Source: Aerococcus urinae
Lineage (GTDB): Bacteria; Bacillota; Bacilli; Lactobacillales; Aerococcaceae
NCBI RefSeq assembly: GCF_001543175.1
Contig: NZ_CP014161.1
Coordinates: forward strand, 930,001-994,000
Length of the DNA: 64,000 nucleotides
Direction of reading: 5' to 3'
Shown: positions 15,384 to 34,803 of the stretch, in pieces
Numbering within the stretch: the first letter of the stretch is position 1
Layout of the letters: the number at the start of each line of letters is the position of its first letter
Notes under the pieces: generated by a model
Database searches by the model: none
What the model saw: only the letters and a program-made list of their open reading frames with translations
What the model was told of the DNA's origin: nothing
Translations under genes and position numbers: made by a program

Positions 15384-15412
15384 TTGACATTTATCATTTT
15401 CCTGCTTATGTA
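15384..15412 (+). promoter_or_regulatory. Promoter of the TrpXYZ-like leader
   Basis: TTGACA at 15384-15389, exactly 17 nt, then TATGTA at 15407-15412. Transcription would start near 15419, giving a leader of about 350 nt before the first transporter gene. The 190 bp between the ppaC terminator and this promoter hold no gene I can see, only a second TTGACA at 15295 without a good -10. Confidence 0.65.
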
Positions 15413-15429
15413 AAAAGGACGTAAGAGAA

Positions 15430-15513
15430 ATGTTAAACATCCAATTCAATTCGCATAGGGTTTTATCTTTAGATATCACCACTAATACATATTACTATAG
15501 CTATTTTAGATAA
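15430..15513 (+). CDS. Candidate tyrosine-rich leader peptide
   Basis: A 27-codon ORF starting ATG at 15430, about 10 nt after an AAGGA ribosome site and just downstream of the promoter. Its last codons are TAT TAC TAT AGC TAT TTT AGA TAA, that is Tyr-Tyr-Tyr-Ser-Tyr-Phe-Arg-stop. Four Tyr and one Phe in six codons directly before a series of hairpins is the layout of an attenuation leader peptide. Tyr codons are AT-rich, so chance is possible in this base composition; the support is the combination of promoter, ribosome site, hairpins and terminator in front of an aromatic-amino-acid-type importer. Confidence 0.45.
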   Translation: MLNIQFNSHRVLSLDITTNTYYYSYFR

Positions 15514-15710
15514 TGTTTGTAGCTGTGACACTATCATAGGTACAAACAAACGCAAGTTTTTGTATCTATGATGGCTACAGTTTTTATGTGTTCAAGCCAT
15601 CTGGAATGATAAATTCTAATGGCTTGAGGCGAATTCTTTTGGAATACACTCGTAAAAGGTTCAATTAGTTTTTATCGAAACTAATTGAACCTTTTTTTTT
15701 TTTTTTTTAA
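15514..15710 (+). promoter_or_regulatory. Structured leader RNA with three hairpins and intrinsic terminator
   Basis: Hairpin A: 15518-15546 pairs with 15559-15579 (a 14-bp upper stem, an 8-nt bulge and a 6-bp lower stem) and is followed by T5. Element B: CAAGCCAT at 15593-15600 pairs with ATGGCTTG at 15619-15626; GTGTT at 15588 and AATACAC at 15643 may close it. Terminator C: 15654-15671 pairs with 15678-15695 around TTATCG, followed by T17 (15692-15708). Alternative pairings exist: 15495-15512 (Tyr codons) with 15563-15580, and GATGGCT at 15570-15576 with AGCCATC at 15595-15601. It has no T-box sequence and matches no riboswitch I recognise. Alternatively it is a separate small RNA. Confidence 0.65.
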
Positions 15711-15770
15711 GACTATATCGTAAGAAATAAAGGAATCAGTGTTTTTATACACGAGAAAGAGGAGATTATG

Positions 15771-16724
15771 ATGAAAAAGCAAGTGGTAAAAATAATGAGT
15801 TTAGGAGCTTTAGTCCTTGGGTTAATGGGCTGTGGTCAAGGGGAAGAGAAAGATCAAAAAGAGATTGGTATCATTCAATACGCCGAGCACCAGGCACTTA
15901 ATGATGCCCGTGAAGGTTTCCTAGAAGGATTGGCGGAAGGCGGCTTAAAAGATGGCGAAAAGATCAAAGTCGACTACCAAAATGCCCAAGCAGACCAATC
16001 CAATCTCAATAGTATTGCTCAGGGGATGAAAGGGCGAAAAGACCTTGTCTTTACGATTGCCACTCCTGCTGCCCAAGCAGCACTCAATGCTGATAAGGAA
16101 ACTCCTACTTTATTTACTGCAGTCACTGACCCTGAATCCGCTAATTTAGTGAAATCAAACCAGCAACCAGATACTAATGCTAGTGGAACCAGTGACAGGG
16201 CGCCTGTTGAAAAAGCGGTTGACTTGCTCTTAAAGCTCAACCCAGAAATTAAGACAGTCGGTATGCCTTACAATTCAAGCGAAGTGAATTCAGAAATCCA
16301 ATTTGCTGCTTTTAAAGAATACGCTGAAAACAAGGGACTTAAAGTCGAAGCTCAAACGGTAACCACAACCAATGAAGTACAATCCGCAATCACTGCTTTA
16401 GCTAAAAGGGTAGACGGCATTTGCTTACCCACTGATAATACAATTGCTCAAACCATTCCTACTATCGGTAAGGTAGTTAAAGAAGAAAAAGTTCCAACTA
16501 TTGGCGCAGAAAGTACTCATATCGAGGGTTGTTTAGCTACTTACGGAGTTAATTTCAAGAACTTAGGGCGTCAAACCGCAGAGATGGCTATTAAAATTTT
16601 AGAAGAGGGTGCTGACATTAGTAAGATGCCAGTCGAAAGTGCTGATGAATTCGAATTACAAGTCAATGAAGAAATGGCAAGTGCCCTTGGTATCGATACC
16701 GAGCAGTTGAAGAAGGGAGAGTAA
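15771..16724 (+). CDS. TrpX-like ABC transporter substrate-binding lipoprotein
   Basis: Extracellular lipid-anchored binding protein of the ABC_sub_bind family (PF04392 type), the family of streptococcal TrpX. It has a lipoprotein signal ending at the lipobox 'LMGCGQ' (Cys at about residue 22). The binding-domain stretches 'LFTAVTDPESANLV' and 'GICLPTDNTI' are typical of the family. Two adjacent ATGs exist at 15768 and 15771; the second has better spacing to AGAGGAG. It is followed after 4 bp by the permease gene. The substrate is probably an amino acid; the Tyr-rich leader upstream hints at an aromatic one, which is inference. Confidence 0.85.
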   Translation: MKKQVVKIMSLGALVLGLMGCGQGEEKDQKEIGIIQYAEHQALNDAREGFLEGLAEGGLKDGEKIKVDYQNAQADQSNLNSIAQGMKGRKDLVFTIATPAAQAALNADKETPTLFTAVTDPESANLVKSNQQPDTNASGTSDRAPVEKAVDLLLKLNPEIKTVGMPYNSSEVNSEIQFAAFKEYAENKGLKVEAQTVTTTNEVQSAITALAKRVDGICLPTDNTIAQTIPTIGKVVKEEKVPTIGAESTHIEGCLATYGVNFKNLGRQTAEMAIKILEEGADISKMPVESADEFELQVNEEMASALGIDTEQLKKGE

Positions 16725-16728
16725 GATA

Positions 16729-17619
16729 ATGGCTATCATTATTTCTAGTATTTCACAAGGTTTAATGTGGGCTATCTTAGCCTTTGGGGTTTATTTAAGC
16801 TTCCGAATTTTAGATATTGCAGATATGTCAGCTGAAGGAAGTTTTCCTCTCGGTGCAGCTGTTTGTGCCAAGCTAATTATTTCCGGTTTCCATCCCATAT
16901 TAGCTACGCTAATCGCCTTTTTTGCAGGTATGCTAGCCGGGGCTGTCAATGGATTTATGATTAATAAGATGCATATTCCAGCCTTACTATCGGGAATTTT
17001 AACCATGACCGGGCTCTATTCGGTTAACATCCGCATCATGGGGCAAGCCAATACGCCGCTTTTGGGTGAAGCTAGTCTTATGGACATTCTCTATCGCTTG
17101 GGTTTGGATTCAACGATGGCTTCTTTAATCGTTAGTTCTATCTTTGTTGTTTTGGTCATTTTTATTTTAGTTGTATTTATGAATACTGAATACGGTTTAA
17201 GCTTACGGGCTACAGGGGATAACCCCTTAATGGCGGAAGCCAATGGGATTCGAACAGATCAAATGAAATTAGTTGGTCTAATGATCTCTAACGGTTTGAT
17301 CGCTTTATCCGGTGCGATTATCTGTCAGAATAATGGCTATGCGGATATCGCCATGGGGACAGGAACCATTGTTATTGGTTTAGCAGCAGTTATTATTGGC
17401 GAGGTTATTTGCCGCAACTTAAGCTTCGGTAAGCGCCTAGTGACGATCGCCTTAGGAGCAGTCATTTATCGCTTAATTATTGACTTTATTATGCAACAGC
17501 AAATCATTCCGGTCTTGCCAAGCGATATAAAAATTCTATCTTCCCTAGCCCTAGCGATTATTCTCTTTGCTCCTTATGCCAAGAGTCAAATTGACCGCAA
17601 GAAAAATCAAAATAAATAG
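16729..17619 (+). CDS. TrpY-like ABC transporter permease
   Basis: Integral membrane subunit of the same importer, 296 aa, of the branched-chain-type permease fold (BPD_transp_2), with about 8-9 hydrophobic segments. The conserved cytoplasmic loop is 'LSLRATGDNPLMAEANG', which contacts the ATPase. It is tightly packed between the binding-protein gene (4 bp) and the ATPase gene (12 bp), so the three form one transcript. Confidence 0.87.
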   Translation: MAIIISSISQGLMWAILAFGVYLSFRILDIADMSAEGSFPLGAAVCAKLIISGFHPILATLIAFFAGMLAGAVNGFMINKMHIPALLSGILTMTGLYSVNIRIMGQANTPLLGEASLMDILYRLGLDSTMASLIVSSIFVVLVIFILVVFMNTEYGLSLRATGDNPLMAEANGIRTDQMKLVGLMISNGLIALSGAIICQNNGYADIAMGTGTIVIGLAAVIIGEVICRNLSFGKRLVTIALGAVIYRLIIDFIMQQQIIPVLPSDIKILSSLALAIILFAPYAKSQIDRKKNQNK

Positions 17620-17631
17620 AAAGGTGTTTTT

Positions 17632-18441
17632 ATGTCAGAACTATTAAAATTAAGCAAAGTAAATAAAACCTTTAATACTAATAGTGCCAATGAAAATCAC
17701 GTCATCAAAGACCTTGATTTGACCATTCATGAAGGTGAATTTGTTTGTGTCATTGGTTCCAACGGTTCCGGAAAGTCAACTCTTTTGAACCTTATTGCTG
17801 GCACTCACCCAGTGACTTCCGGGCAGATCTTTTTAAAGGGGCAGGAAATTACACAGGATCCTGCCTATAAACGCGCGGGACAGGTCAGTCGGGTTTTTCA
17901 AGATCCTCAAATGGGGACCGCTCGTAATTTAACCATTGAAGAGAATCTGGCTATTGCTTATAAGCGAGGTAAAAAACGAGGATTTACTCACGCAGTAACT
18001 GAAGATATGCGGCAAATATTTCTAAAGGAATTAAGCCGACTGAATCTGGGTCTGGAAGACCGTTTGACCACGCCAGCGGCTAATTTGTCAGGTGGTCAGC
18101 GTCAGGTCTTAACCCTCATGATGGCTATTCTAGAAAAGCCAGAACTTTTACTCCTGGATGAGCATATTGCTGCCTTGGACCCCCGGACCAGTGCTATGGT
18201 GATGGACTTAACGGACCAGTTAATTTCAGAACATCAATTAACCAGTTTAATGATTACCCATGATATGAATGATGCCTTAAGTTATGGGAACCGTTTAATT
18301 ATGCTGCATGAAGGACGGATTGTCGTTGATGTGAGTGGAGATGATAAAAGCAAATTGTCAGTCGAAGATCTTATGGAACTCTTTAAAAAGAGTGTTGGTA
18401 ATCAATTAGTCAGTGATGAATTATTACTCAATACGAAGTAA
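17632..18441 (+). CDS. TrpZ-like ABC transporter ATP-binding protein
   Basis: Cytoplasmic ATPase of the importer, 269 aa. Walker A is 'GSNGSGKST', the signature is 'LSGGQRQ', Walker B is 'LLLLDEHIAALDP' and the H-loop is 'MITHDM'. The Walker B Glu is followed by His where many importers have Pro or Ala, which is also seen in this subfamily. AGAAAGGTG precedes the ATG. A strong hairpin after the stop ends the operon. Confidence 0.92.
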   Translation: MSELLKLSKVNKTFNTNSANENHVIKDLDLTIHEGEFVCVIGSNGSGKSTLLNLIAGTHPVTSGQIFLKGQEITQDPAYKRAGQVSRVFQDPQMGTARNLTIEENLAIAYKRGKKRGFTHAVTEDMRQIFLKELSRLNLGLEDRLTTPAANLSGGQRQVLTLMMAILEKPELLLLDEHIAALDPRTSAMVMDLTDQLISEHQLTSLMITHDMNDALSYGNRLIMLHEGRIVVDVSGDDKSKLSVEDLMELFKKSVGNQLVSDELLLNTK

Positions 18442-18512: not shown

Positions 18513-19202
18513 TTATCTATCTAATCTTTTCAGGGAATCAGCGATTAATTCCTCAAAATAAATAAGTGTTAGGCCAAAAAAGACTTGGGCCTTGTATTCC
18601 TTATAACGAAAAATAGAATACGATTTTGTATCGATGGTTAATTGAGCGTTTTTTTGCAGCTGACCACTCGGATTACCGGTAAATACCATATATTCTACAC
18701 CGTTCTTATGGGCAAGCTGGGCTAAGCGCACGAGGTACTCGGTCTCTCCAGAATGACTAATGAAAATAATAACTGCTTCATCAGCAAAGGTTTTATTGAT
18801 GAATTCCTCGTAAGTATTACTTATGGAGCGAAAACCAAAAGTATTTAAGAGGTCAGACATATAATTAGCTAAGTGTAATGAAAAACCTAGACCCATAAAA
18901 ATAAATAGCTTATCCTGGTATTTTTCAATCATTTTATAAAAATCATCACCATAGCAATCGATGATTGATTGTTGGCTAACGTGCATTTCTTTTTCACGCT
19001 CTTGGTTAAATTGAAATAATAATTCACTATAACCGGAGAAGTTCATCTTCTTGGCCAGATGAATAATGGTTGCAGGTGACACATAGGCTTTTTCTGCTAG
19101 CTCGCGGATGGTTAACTTGGCATCAGATTGGATTAAATGCTTTAAAATATCAACTTCAGTGTCAGTTAAATGATATTTACTGATAATACGGTCTAATTTC
19201 AT
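18513..19202 (-). CDS. MurR/RpiR-family transcriptional regulator
   Basis: A 229-aa DNA-binding regulator. The N-terminal helix-turn-helix (HTH_6) is at about residues 20-55 ('IRELAEKAYVSPATIIHLAK'). The C-terminal SIS domain (residues ~85-225) contains 'VIIFISHSGETEYLV', the phosphosugar-binding loop. It is divergent from the flavoprotein gene across a 218-bp gap, so it probably controls that operon. RpiR regulators normally sense phosphosugars, which does not fit a dicarboxylate-type operon well; the real ligand is unknown. Confidence 0.85.
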   Translation of the reverse strand: MKLDRIISKYHLTDTEVDILKHLIQSDAKLTIRELAEKAYVSPATIIHLAKKMNFSGYSELLFQFNQEREKEMHVSQQSIIDCYGDDFYKMIEKYQDKLFIFMGLGFSLHLANYMSDLLNTFGFRSISNTYEEFINKTFADEAVIIFISHSGETEYLVRLAQLAHKNGVEYMVFTGNPSGQLQKNAQLTIDTKSYSIFRYKEYKAQVFFGLTLIYFEELIADSLKRLDR

Positions 19203-19420
19203 TTAATTACCTCATTATATTTATTAATAAATTACATTATAACATTTTTACAATAATCCTTGATAGCGATTACTTTAATCACTAATAAGTTATTTTCTAT
19301 TTTGTTTAGTTTGAAATTGAACATGTTTATATTAACTCCTAAAGTATAGTAACAGCTATTCTTAATATGTTATCCTTATCACGAACACAGGTTATCTATT
19401 TATTTTTAGGAGGTATAAAG

Positions 19421-21292
19421 ATGACAAAAGGTCTTTTTGAACCAGGTAGTTATTCTGTTAGAGCAGCAGGACACAATGGGTCTTTACCTATGGAAGTCAC
19501 TCTGACTGACGATCGCATTAAGAGTATTGAGATTGATACTAGTGGTGAAAGTAAGGGAATCACTTCACCAGTCTTTGAAAGAATTCCTAAAGCAATTATT
19601 GAAGGCCAAACCCTCAATGTCGATACCGTCAGTGGAGCGACAGTAACCAGTAAGGGGATTTTGGCAGGTGTTGCCGACGCTATTGAAGCAGCCGGTGGGG
19701 ACCCTGAAGAATTCCGTAATCGCCCTAAATACCAAGCTGATCAAGCTGACAGTCCTGATGAAAAAAGTGCTGATGTGGTTGTATTAGGTTCAGGTGGAGC
19801 CGGTTTATCAGCAGCTATCGGTGCTATTGATAAGGGAGCTAAGGTCATTCTTCTTGAAAAATTCCCTTCACTCGGCGGAAATACCACACGGACAGGGGGA
19901 CAAATTAACTCTGCTGACCCTGAATGGCAAAAAGGCTTTGATGCTTTTCCAGGGGAAGTTAATAACTTAAAGGGAATTTATCAAATGGATGAAGCGAACA
20001 TTCCAGAAGCCTATCGCCCACAATTCCGTGAGTTAAAAGACGAGCTAGAAAAATACTTCGCTGATATGGAAAAAGGAGAAAATTACCTCTTTGATTCAGA
20101 AAACCTCTTCTGTATCCAAACCTTATTAGGAGGAACGCGGAAAGACTTAGATGGTCATGTTACCTATGGTAATTACGACTTAGTATCTAATTTAACCCAC
20201 AAAGGTCGTCAAACCATTGAATGGATGAAAACCAAGGGTGTTGAATTTGATGAAGAGCATGTTACTGAACCTGTAGGAGCTTCCTGGCGTCGTGCCCGTG
20301 AACCAATTCCTACTGGTGGTTACGGCTTTATTGACCCCTTGCAAAAATACTTTACCCAACAAGGTGGAGAAATTATTACTGACTGCCAAGCTAAAGAATT
20401 ACTGGTAGAAGACGGTAAAATTGTTGGTGTGAAAGCTCAATACAGTAACGGCAACGACTTAACTGTTCACGCTAAGAGTGGGGTAGTTATGGCTACTGGT
20501 GGCTACTCAGCTAACTATGAAATGGTCAAAAAATATGATAATTACTGGGGTAATCTTCCTGAAACGATCCCAACAACCAATTCACCAGCCTTAACCGGTG
20601 ATGGTATTGCAATGGGGCTATCAGTTAATGCAGCTCTAGTAGATATGGGCTTTGCTCAATTAATGCCTAGTGCCGACCCTATTACAGGTAATATCTTTAG
20701 TGGGATTGACTGTCCACCTTCTGATTTCGTCTTTGTTAACTTAGAAGGTAAACGTTTTGTTAATGAATATGGGACTCGTGACCAACTTTGCCAAGCAATT
20801 TTTGACCAAGGCGGCTTGATTTACAATATTTCTGACAAGAATATTGCGGCAACCCGTTTCAATTCTACTGATGAACAACTCGAAAATGATATTAAAAATG
20901 ATGCTTGCTTTAGAGCAGATACCTTGGAAGAACTTGCTGAACAAATTAATATTGATCCTGAAGTTCTGGTTGATACCATTGAGAAATATAACCAATATGT
21001 TGAGGATGGACACGATCCTGAATTTAATAAGGGTTCATTCAACTATAAGGTAGAGGTTCCTCCATTCTACGCGACTCCAAGAAGTCCTGCAACCCATCAT
21101 ACCATGGGTGGTTTGAAAATCAATGTGAATGCCCAAGTAATCAATGAAGCTGGTGAAGCTATTGATGGCTTATTTGCAGCTGGTGAAGTTGCAGGTGGTA
21201 TTCACGCAGGAAACCGTCTTGGTGGAAACGCCCTAATTGACATCTTTACTTACGGAAGAATTGCTGGCGAAAACGCTGCAAGCAATCGATAG
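19421..21292 (+). CDS. FMN-binding/FAD-dependent fumarate-reductase-like flavoprotein
   Basis: Soluble flavoprotein of the fumarate/urocanate reductase type, 623 aa. The N-terminal FMN_bind domain carries the flavinylation motif 'DTVSGATVTS' (residues 68-77), where ApbE attaches FMN to a Thr. The FAD_binding_2 domain begins at 'GSGGAGLSAAIG' (residue ~123). The active-site region has 'ATHHTMGGLKIN' and the end has 'GNRLGGNALIDIFTYGRIAG'. No signal peptide, so it acts in the cytoplasm, perhaps as an NADH-linked electron sink. The ATG at 19421 follows TAGGAGG; an earlier in-frame ATG has no site. The substrate (fumarate, urocanate or another unsaturated acid) cannot be read from sequence. Confidence 0.88.
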   Translation: MTKGLFEPGSYSVRAAGHNGSLPMEVTLTDDRIKSIEIDTSGESKGITSPVFERIPKAIIEGQTLNVDTVSGATVTSKGILAGVADAIEAAGGDPEEFRNRPKYQADQADSPDEKSADVVVLGSGGAGLSAAIGAIDKGAKVILLEKFPSLGGNTTRTGGQINSADPEWQKGFDAFPGEVNNLKGIYQMDEANIPEAYRPQFRELKDELEKYFADMEKGENYLFDSENLFCIQTLLGGTRKDLDGHVTYGNYDLVSNLTHKGRQTIEWMKTKGVEFDEEHVTEPVGASWRRAREPIPTGGYGFIDPLQKYFTQQGGEIITDCQAKELLVEDGKIVGVKAQYSNGNDLTVHAKSGVVMATGGYSANYEMVKKYDNYWGNLPETIPTTNSPALTGDGIAMGLSVNAALVDMGFAQLMPSADPITGNIFSGIDCPPSDFVFVNLEGKRFVNEYGTRDQLCQAIFDQGGLIYNISDKNIAATRFNSTDEQLENDIKNDACFRADTLEELAEQINIDPEVLVDTIEKYNQYVEDGHDPEFNKGSFNYKVEVPPFYATPRSPATHHTMGGLKINVNAQVINEAGEAIDGLFAAGEVAGGIHAGNRLGGNALIDIFTYGRIAGENAASNR

Positions 21293-33361: not shown

Positions 33362-34498
33362 TTAGGCATCTTCGCCCCATACTTCTTTTGCAACTTCGAT
33401 TAATAATTTTATTTTTTTCCATTGGTCTTCTTCACTGATCTTATTGCCAATTTCATTGGAAGAAAAGCCACATTGAGGGCTAATACTTAAACGATCTAAG
33501 GGAACATATTGACTGGCTTCTTTAATCCGGGCGATTAGGTCGTCTTTGCTTTCTAATTCAGCTGACTTTGTTGTGACTAAGCCTAAGACGACATGCTTGT
33601 CATCAGATACAGTCTTTAGAGGTTCAAAAGTTCCCGCCCGCTCAGAGTCATATTCTAGGAAGTAGGCATGGACATTTTCTTGATCAAATAAGGGGCTTTG
33701 TACGGTGTCATAGCCTCCTGAAGCAAACCAAGTTGAGCGGAAATTTCCCCTACAGATATGGGTGTTGATCCTTAAATCGGAAGGTTTATTTGCGATAACT
33801 GCATTATTGACGCGGGCATAAAGGGCTTTTAATTCTTCGATTTTCCCTTGGCTATATTCACTTCCATCGTAATCTTTACCCCCAGCTAAACGTCCCCAAG
33901 TACAATCATCAAATTGAATGGTCCGACAGCCTGCTTGATAGAGGTCTTCAATGACTTGGCTATAGGCTTGGGTAATATCAGCTAATAAGTCGTCTAATTG
34001 GCTATATATCCCCTGAGTATATTCCTTATTAAAGTCACGTAAAACCTCTTGCAAGAATTGAGCTGGCGCTGGAATGGTTTGCTTAACGTCAACATGATCA
34101 GAAGCATGCGCTTGGGTAAATTTGAAATGATTCACAAAAGGATGGTTATCACCATTTATTTTATCAACAATTCGGCTGGTCACGGCAAAGACTTGTTCTC
34201 CGGAGAATTGAGTTCCCGCTTCTACTTCAACACGGTCAACACCATTGAGTCCCCAGAAGAAGTCAAAATGCCAACTTTTACGGCGAAATTCACCATCCGT
34301 GATGGTCTTTAAACCAAGGGCTTCTTCTTTTTTGATCAGGTCAATAATCGCTTGGTCTTCTAAAGTTTTAAGTTCTGAATATTCAATTTCTTCGTTTTCA
34401 AATTTCGCTCTTGCATCAATGAGCTCTTGGGGACGTAGAAAAGACCCCACATGGTCATAACGAAACGGTGATTGTTTTAACTGAGTAAATTTTGGCAT
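33362..34498 (-). CDS. Cobalamin-independent methionine synthase-like protein (YxjG/YxjH type)
   Basis: Single-domain homologue of the C-terminal half of MetE, 378 aa, as in Bacillus YxjG/YxjH. The zinc ligands expected for homocysteine binding are visible: His and Cys in 'INTHICRGNFR' and Cys in 'ISPQCGFSS'. 'TDGEFRRKSWHFDFFWGLNG' is the family start region. The start is ATG at 34498 behind AAGGAG; a GTG 9 bp upstream is less likely. Without a MetE N-terminal domain it may use a methyl donor other than polyglutamyl-methyltetrahydrofolate. The methionine T box in front shows it responds to uncharged tRNA-Met. Confidence 0.9.
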   Translation of the reverse strand: MPKFTQLKQSPFRYDHVGSFLRPQELIDARAKFENEEIEYSELKTLEDQAIIDLIKKEEALGLKTITDGEFRRKSWHFDFFWGLNGVDRVEVEAGTQFSGEQVFAVTSRIVDKINGDNHPFVNHFKFTQAHASDHVDVKQTIPAPAQFLQEVLRDFNKEYTQGIYSQLDDLLADITQAYSQVIEDLYQAGCRTIQFDDCTWGRLAGGKDYDGSEYSQGKIEELKALYARVNNAVIANKPSDLRINTHICRGNFRSTWFASGGYDTVQSPLFDQENVHAYFLEYDSERAGTFEPLKTVSDDKHVVLGLVTTKSAELESKDDLIARIKEASQYVPLDRLSISPQCGFSSNEIGNKISEEDQWKKIKLLIEVAKEVWGEDA

Positions 34499-34531
34499 AA
34501 TTAGCACTCCTTTTATTTTTAATTGATGTCA

Positions 34532-34803
34532 TAAAAAAATCCCATCCCTGGAACAATAATCTTTCCTAGGGACGGGATAACCGTGGTACCACCCTGATTA
34601 CTCCTCTATTGCTAAAGGAGTCACTTATACAATCTGTATCAATTGCTGCAAAGTAACGGTTGCTACCGTTTAGAAAGCCGACACCTTCTAAAACCTCCGA
34701 GTTCATCTTCACTGATTCCATCGTCATTAGCTCTCATCCCTACTAATTTTCTGTAAACGCTTTGAATAAGCTACTCTTCTCATCACAGTTAATTTATTTA
34801 TTT
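34532..34803 (-). promoter_or_regulatory. Methionine T-box leader
   Basis: Canonical T-box antiterminator sequence AGGGTGGTACCACGG (minus strand 34595-34581), followed by a terminator formed by 34565-34577 and 34540-34551 with a T7 tail. Stem I begins with GATGAGAAGAG (34785-34775). In its 3' side, within GAAGATGAAC (34710-34701), the likely specifier is ATG at 34706-34704, i.e. methionine. Uncharged tRNA-Met would stabilise the antiterminator and allow transcription of the YxjG-type gene. The 200 bp further upstream to 35033 show only a hairpin CTTGGT/ACCAAG near 34994-35011 without a T tract. Confidence 0.92.
34745..34765. promoter_or_regulatory. Overlapping CodY-box-like and cre-like sites
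   Basis: 34745-34759 matches the CodY consensus AATTTTCWGAAAATT at 12 of 15 positions. 34752-34765 matches the CcpA cre consensus TGWAARCGYTWNCW at 13 of 14. They lie about 40-60 bp downstream of the predicted transcription start, inside T-box stem I, where a bound protein could act as a roadblock. AT-rich chance matches are possible. Confidence 0.3.

Follow-up and report, generated by a model that had tools for sequence, protein, structure and literature searches.

A candidate family of ribosome-mediated attenuators with exchangeable leader codons in Lactobacillales

Which signal governs the ABC_sub_bind importer genes of Aerococcus urinae, and how is it read? In the 64,000-nucleotide stretch analyzed here (the window; all coordinates are positions within it), these genes follow a short, tyrosine-rich open reading frame (ORF) and a terminator. 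The original prediction described a promoter, a ribosome site, a 27-codon ORF, hairpins and a T17 terminator, and took the locus for a ribosome-mediated attenuator, a reading that is largely supported here. All of these elements lie where it had placed them, with a poor −10 box, and the downstream importer indeed comprises ABC_sub_bind, BPD_transp_2 permease and ABC ATPase genes. The features are as follows, with peptides here and below written up to the stop codon.

15384..15412, + strand: putative promoter TTGACA-17-TATGTA (TTGACA 15384-15389, 17-base spacer, TATGTA 15407-15412); the −10 is weak and not among the promoter-scan picks
15414..15419, + strand: Shine-Dalgarno (SD) site AAAGGA of the leader ORF, ten bases 5' of the ATG at 15430
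15430..15513, + strand: leader-peptide ORF of 27 codons, MLNIQFNSHRVLSLDITTNTYYYSYFR, in the same frame in relatives
15490..15510, + strand: regulatory codons Tyr-Tyr-Tyr-Ser-Tyr-Phe-Arg, at the aromatic-codon positions of 138 non-redundant aromatic leaders
15495..15512, + strand: segment 1, within the ORF, partner b (covariation helices 1 and 2; own pairing better than swapped in 87/88)
15515..15527, + strand: segment a, partner a'; a ribosome at the stop codon would cover it
15535..15547, + strand: segment a', partner a or b (a':b own better than swapped in 70/88)
15559..15580, + strand: segment b, partner 1, a' or 3 (covariation and own-versus-swapped pairing)
15594..15606, + strand: segment 3, partner b or 4 (covariation and own-versus-swapped pairing)
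15614..15625, + strand: segment 4, partner 3, or 5 as antiterminator (4:5 own better than swapped in 78/88)
15654..15708, + strand: intrinsic terminator, arms 5 and 6 (15654-15695) plus T tract
15768..16724, + strand: ABC_sub_bind (PF04392) lipoprotein, predicted to bind tyrosine, with Glu248 and Phe263 at two specificity positions
16729..17619, + strand: permease BPD_transp_2
17632..18441, + strand: ABC transporter ATPase

The promoter is the weakest part of the window leader, its TATGTA lacking the last T. The terminator at 15654-15695 contains 19 pairs, with 17 T at 15692-15708, and the 298-nt leader folds at −99.8 kcal/mol versus −52.1 (sd 4.9) for shuffles (z −9.7). Scans of the leader region returned terminator-like and promoter-like sites in numbers not above those of shuffles, and the case for an attenuator thus rests on fold and conservation. 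No T-box (RF00230) match was found in the leader by the same window scan that did detect one at 34565-34795, and the leader falls below the gathering cut-offs of both RF02863 (sRNA_2410) and RF04312 (trpB motif), so that neither is listed for it in the Rfam scan. A plasmid search with leader plus gene gave two weak matches only, both inside the gene. The T-box at 34565-34795 (minus strand, 104.8 bits) precedes a cobalamin-independent methionine synthase-like gene at 33362-34507.

Relatives of the leader were initially collected by searching the importer protein in 60 related genomes and reading the upstream regions. These leaders share the anatomy of the window leader; their peptides vary for the most part, with ends that are alike (YYFSYFR, FYFSYFR, FFFSFFR and KYYFSFFR). 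Covariance model R1, built from 20 leaders and with E-values from a short calibration, matches 262 of 395 genomes of the order and 63 of its 80 genera, the window leader (15384-15708) included. R2, built from 99 leaders and run against 398 genomes of the class, matches 36, six of them from outside the order. Among the matches listed, a pattern scan placed such leaders in Enterococcus, Streptococcus (S. pneumoniae, S. mitis), Tetragenococcus, Vagococcus, Atopobacter, Aliicoccus, Clostridium and Eubacterium multiforme. Peptide-leader attenuation had been expected to be rare in Lactobacillales; if the family works as proposed below, its presence in 262 of 395 genomes contradicts that expectation. 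In the literature searched, as far as the text of the sources was accessible, we found no account of this leader family as an attenuator.

Altogether, 232 leaders were gathered, of which 209 have distinct cores. The sample is non-random: 23 are first relatives or paralogues, 100 were taken from both extremes, strong and weak, of the match lists, 80 are named leaders found by the aromatic pattern (which inflates the aromatic class) and 29 come from later lists. With a lenient finder, an ORF and a hairpin followed by T were detected in 205 of the 209. Irregular members include L313, a model match with no ORF called, L135, whose ORF runs beyond the expected stop, and L207, which contains N. Leader ORFs range in length from 11 codons to 30, with most between 16 and 23. 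A best SD-ATG could be assigned to 168 leaders, and in 157 of them it shares the reading frame given by the RNA model, where chance predicts one third; the test omits 16 branched-chain leaders because the model start shifts there. All 157 in-frame ORFs are open, and a further 25 leaders lack an SD-ATG. Aromatic codons stand mostly at −2, −3, −5 and −6, and often −7, from the stop (138 non-redundant aromatic leaders). The homologues therefore retain start, frame and aromatic run before the stop, and loss of these was what the original prediction had named as evidence against its attenuator reading. Its tyrosine run needs rewording: what is conserved is an aromatic run, in which Tyr and Phe are interchangeable, up to the Phe-only FFFSFFR of the close relatives L033, L034, L039 and L041.

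Outliers mark the edge of the family. L046 and L319, from the same genus, retain the architecture with rewritten stems, and neither R1 nor R2 matches the genome of L046 (G008). The genome of L044 (G018) likewise has no R1 or R2 match; in it, another short ORF, MQPQTKVPQSHHQ, plus a terminator stands ahead of an ABC_sub_bind gene, with the scaffold absent.

Analysis of the covarying structure supports a set of competing helices. In the model structure, 94.3% of cells are paired, versus 83.1% after shuffling and 26-42% when the alignment is slid, and 31 of 34 model pairs show changes on both sides; the alignment was fitted to the model structure and is hence biased toward it. In an own-versus-swapped test, the duplex energy of each leader's own segment pair was compared with that obtained using segments of other leaders, among 88 non-redundant leaders. 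The own pair was better in 87 (1:b), 84 (a:a'), 70 (a':b), 73 (b:3), 87 (3:4), 78 (4:5) and 88 (5:6) leaders, with P values for the seven helices of 1.5e-5 to 1.9e-16. Six of seven control pairs gave no signal, and the remaining one, 1:4, gave a weak one (50/88, P = 0.0097). Because adjacent helices are mutually exclusive along a chain, the segments would form a relay of seven helices. The predicted hairpins and terminator are thus present, in the form of this relay and not of one terminator with one competitor. By eye, the window's own 4:5 helix is bulged.

Based on these data, we propose that the leader is a transcription attenuator worked by the translating ribosome, a reading to which we assign a probability of roughly 0.87. 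RNA polymerase would make the leader while a ribosome trails it on the 27-codon ORF. A shortage of charged tRNA-Tyr, or less strongly of charged tRNA-Phe, would halt the ribosome on the Tyr/Phe codons, where it would cover segment 1 only. Helix a:a' would then form ahead of the ribosome, leaving b free to pair with 3 and 4 free to pair with 5, so that arm 6 is left without a partner and transcription reads through into the importer genes (ON). With charged tRNA, the ribosome would reach the stop and also cover a, allowing a':b, 3:4 and 5:6 to form and transcription to terminate (OFF). Without translation, 1:b enclosing a:a' would be followed again by 3:4 and 5:6 (OFF). The same scaffold with Ile/Leu, Trp or His codons stands before matching genes, and the codons would accordingly act as an exchangeable specifier.

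Folding calculations on the family agree in direction with this proposal. In 205 leaders, the transcript was cut ahead of arm 6 and the ribosome edge was shifted along it. Arm 5 was held upstream with a mean probability of 0.55 with no ribosome, 0.71 with the ribosome at the regulatory codons and 0.60 at the stop; the stalled value exceeded that without a ribosome in 169 of 205 leaders and that at the stop in 159 of 205. With the ribosome edge beyond a', the mean rose to 0.76, which we read as the modeled state in which a:a' has already closed. For the window leader taken alone, the states barely differ (0.34-0.51 over the Tyr codons, 0.35 at the stop), and in its whole leader the probability is 0.005. 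We also considered the single-sequence equilibrium fold of the window as proof of the switch and rejected it: 3:4 persists with a ribosome on the Tyr codons, and the antiterminator is absent. This result counts against the proposal; since these equilibrium folds keep 3:4, prior formation of a:a' would be required for switching.

We next consider how the codons relate to the gene downstream. Leaders were classed from the last 11 residues with thresholds chosen after the data were seen, giving 178 aromatic, 16 branched-chain, 9 Trp, 1 His and 2 unclear leaders and 3 with no ORF called (n = 209). Downstream genes were named from their similarity to 26 representatives drawn from the set, of which 23 were verified by NCBIfam/Pfam (the exceptions being L132, L237 and L317), some under the curated family cut-off, such as hisZ, livJ and pheA. 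Aromatic leaders, which spell Tyr/Phe, precede ABC_sub_bind genes (115), aroE (24), DAHP synthase (8), solute-binding family 3 (6), sodium symporters (5), aminotransferases (4), pheA (4) and aroC (2). Single cases are aroB, aroK, a fusion of MFS transporter and chorismate mutase, a transketolase, a peptide transporter, a BcaP-like permease, a DASS transporter and an importer permease, and two are unassigned. For 41 of the 178, the gene is aroE, DAHP synthase, pheA, aroC, aroB, aroK or the MFS-chorismate-mutase fusion. Branched-chain leaders, which spell Ile/Leu, precede livJ (8), ilvA (3), ilvE (2), ilvB (2) and an OppA-like gene (1). Each of the nine Trp leaders stands ahead of ABC_sub_bind (TrpX), and the His leader L304 (FHHHHRFKGL), from one weak match (40.9 bits, E 3.2e-4), stands ahead of hisZ. 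Among the 209 leaders, zero ilv or livJ genes follow an aromatic leader and zero aromatic-biosynthesis genes follow a branched-chain leader (Fisher 15/0 vs 0/42, P = 4.5e-14, a value that ignores kinship, with several gene families on each side). Judged from these assignments, the amino acid spelled by the peptide usually matches the one made or imported by the gene it would control. The aromatic leader L130 counts against the match, the permease behind it being of the BcaP-like, branched-chain kind (577 bits; its cut-off is 690), as do the single aromatic leaders ahead of the peptide transporter and the DASS transporter. With Tyr and Phe mixed, the aromatic leaders may sense either tRNA. The leader ahead of the MFS-chorismate-mutase fusion (L125) ends VYYFDFAYFK, and the one ahead of the transketolase (L300) ends RYYYFGWFS; the latter would link a sugar-phosphate enzyme to aromatic amino-acid supply.

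This exchange of codons bears on a possible nascent-peptide arrest of the TnaC and SpeFL type, in which the peptide acts with a free amino acid to hold the ribosome on the stop codon. Arg, encoded by AGA, is the last residue of most peptides (aromatic leaders, 103 of 138; branched-chain, 14 of 15; Trp, 7 of 9), a constancy that such arrest could account for. Arrest peptides depend on specific residues, however, whereas Tyr, Phe, Ile, Leu, Trp and His interchange here according to the downstream gene. Moreover, the AGA sits within a helix, and an imported amino acid would induce its importer when already plentiful. We regard arrest as quite improbable.

The Trp leaders connect the family to the trpB motif (RF04312), for which no leader ORF is described in the sections available to us of the report of Narunsky et al. 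(2024, PMC11109978). The P1 stem of the motif corresponds to a':b here and its second hairpin to the terminator; the Rfam model begins at a', thereby excluding the peptide, segment 1 and a. Against a cut-off of 59 bits, RF04312 gives the Trp leaders L295-L298 scores of 59-69, while L133 and L309 fall below the cut-off and L126, L310 and L311 are unmatched. In the order, RF04312 has matches at E <= 0.001 in 113 of 198 genomes and matches over the cut-off in 41 of 198; in the phylum, 5 of 398 genomes are matched. Some of these matches are aromatic leaders. In the host genome, the trpB leader scores 51.3 bits, the trpX leader 50.1 and one aromatic leader 38.2, with a cut-off of 59. The trpB-like gene, named by eye, has the Trp leader L325, MNNAFQSWQKWHRK, plus a terminator (G000:C1:1970194-1970295, minus strand), and trpX has the Trp leader MSLKQITTFSWQIRMV. 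We examined 32 trpB-motif loci, mostly the best-scoring ones. An ORF containing one Trp or more was present at every one of them; at three loci it appeared only after the demand for a ribosome site was dropped.

Trp leaders of the trpB-motif type seem shorter: b would pair directly with the 5' arm of the terminator, with 3 and 4 omitted, so that two steps of the relay are lost and its sign is unchanged. Among 27 distinct such leaders, own pairing exceeded swapped pairing in 24 (a':b), 21 (a:a') and 27 (5:6); for b:5 it did so, barely, in 16 of 27 (P = 0.049), and two controls were negative.

The trpB motif has been published as a strong riboswitch candidate, with a classic attenuator left open in the parts of that report available to us (PMC11109978), and a metabolite-binding riboswitch beside which the ORF is incidental would suit a leader that is highly structured, widespread and placed before amino-acid genes. 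An incidental ORF is hard to reconcile with the in-frame SD-ATG in 157 of 168 leaders, with an ORF having at least two Trp in its last nine codons at 25 of 32 trpB-motif loci versus 2 of 160 shifted controls, or with a codon class that tracks the downstream gene, and we consider this reading very improbable. In place of it, attenuation by a translating ribosome offers tRNA-Trp charging as an answer to the printed question of which signal the trpB motif reads.

By sequence, sRNA_2410 (RF02863; Sinel et al., 2017) likewise looks like part of the leader family, being the same RNA as the aromatic leader. It is annotated as a stand-alone sRNA, yet in L193, the leader of an Enterococcus lactis ABC_sub_bind importer whose ORF ends NFYFSYFR and whose 206 bits are the highest among the loci scanned, the match begins in the last codons of the ORF; L036, L143, L158 and L202 are also above the cut-off of 61 (L036, a paralogue, at 63.4 bits). 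That the RNA acts in trans, as its Rfam label implies and as the 195-nt E. faecium RNA with its two transcripts (Sinel et al., 2017, PMC5593968, in the part of the article available) might suggest, is highly improbable, given that this top match is an importer leader, that the position ahead of matching genes is retained across genera and that a terminated leader would resemble an sRNA. A terminated attenuator leader would explain sRNA_2410, which would then be re-labelled as a leader. At gathering score, no Rfam family was found in the nine branched-chain loci scanned.

Attenuation by a translating ribosome is classically of the E. coli trp, his, phe and ilv type, in which, as here, a short ORF rich in codons of the pathway precedes mutually exclusive hairpins and an intrinsic terminator. 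The E. coli trp attenuator has three helices, versus the seven-helix relay of the present leaders, and, unlike the classic cases, one scaffold here recurs in many genera with its codons swapped among Tyr/Phe, Ile/Leu, Trp and His. T-boxes are regarded as the main sensors of tRNA charging in Firmicutes, and the leader family points to a second, ribosome-read charging sensor, common in Enterococcus, Streptococcus, Vagococcus, the family of A. urinae and their kin. Gram-positive cases are outlined, in the portions of the sources available, for a leucine-rich attenuator peptide of S. aureus (PMC5794164), the Corynebacterium ilvB uORF (PMC10272879; described in PMC11109978) and His leaders in Bacillus, Peptostreptococcaceae and Erysipelotrichales (PMC2965389, PMC9413887). 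By its description in the available part of PMC8632094, the uORFC-13-1 motif before aroF in Acholeplasma is alike, a candidate uORF with Phe codons, DAHP synthase and a terminator, known from 24 examples in one genus plus environmental DNA. T-boxes, such as that of S. suis trpXYZ, resemble the leaders in their exchangeable specifier codon, their sensing of tRNA charging and the overlapping gene families (PMC9382623, as far as available); in the present leaders, the codons would instead be read by the ribosome. The original prediction placed Trp T-boxes ahead of trpXYZ in related bacteria; one does precede trpX in S. suis (same source), and many tryptophan relatives in the order have a leader of the present kind with Trp codons.

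Taken together, we think it probable that the leaders form an unrecognized attenuator family that spans the order and uses a single scaffold with exchangeable codons (Tyr/Phe, Ile/Leu, Trp, His). The family would be a counterpart of the T-box that is read by the ribosome, would extend to Clostridium and other Bacilli, and would include Rfam sRNA_2410 and the trpB candidate. The codon swaps on one scaffold would provide a natural series for changes in attenuator specificity, and the codons suggest likely substrates for poorly characterized ABC importers.

For the window importer, the best PDB match of the binding protein is CD0873 (6HNI, E 3.4e-79, compared with 4.2e-54 for SP1069). According to the available part of PMC6816091, tryptophan is held by Gln-284 in SP1069, a position taken by Tyr in the proteins that bind Tyr or Phe, and in CD0873 the hydroxyl of tyrosine is held by Glu-263. 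When the pocket positions were transferred by alignment, the window protein fitted the CD0873-type rule: its residue opposite Glu-263 is Glu, and the Trp position is not occupied by Gln. Among 98 importers, Gln occupies the Trp-pocket position in 9 of 9 with Trp leaders versus 0 of 89 others (which include one with an unclear leader and one with no ORF), and the nine form a single clade (support 100/99). The tree neighbours of the window importer have Tyr-rich leaders (L002; L046, RYYRNYYG; L319, RYYRGYYG), but at the position of the window protein's Glu, the importers of L046 and L319, whose leaders are Tyr-only, carry Ser. In the sister group, with Phe-only (L033, L039) and mixed (L004, L035) leaders, Phe takes that place. 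Glu/Asp/Thr versus Phe/Val/Ala in the pocket tracks Tyr minus Phe in the leader (P = 0.0098, 8 versus 10 rows chosen post hoc, most rows being uninformative Ser), a relation that is suggestive only.

The host genome (99.99% complete) was searched for chorismate synthase and prephenate dehydratase with no match, and for prephenate dehydrogenase it gave a sub-threshold match only. On this basis, the host probably must import Tyr and Phe; three aromatic leaders occur in this genome, each ahead of an importer. The pocket Glu and the host's lack of a chorismate synthase match lead us to predict a tyrosine importer. In view of the pocket Glu, the likeness to CD0873 and the Tyr-rich tree neighbours, we judge it likely that the importer carries tyrosine, and the window switch is predicted to induce it when Tyr-tRNA is scarce. 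Tyr rather than Phe for this copy gains backing from the pocket Glu, short of proof.

Behind the importer lie an RpiR-type regulator (18513-19202, minus strand) and an FMN_bind/FAD_binding_2 flavoprotein (19367-21292, plus strand). In Tetragenococcus halophilus L195, a transposase-like ORF, recognized by eye, stands immediately behind the leader. In L033-L036, the ribosome site of the leader ORF, GGAGCATG, could by eye pair with CATGCTC within the ORF, possibly as a second layer of control.
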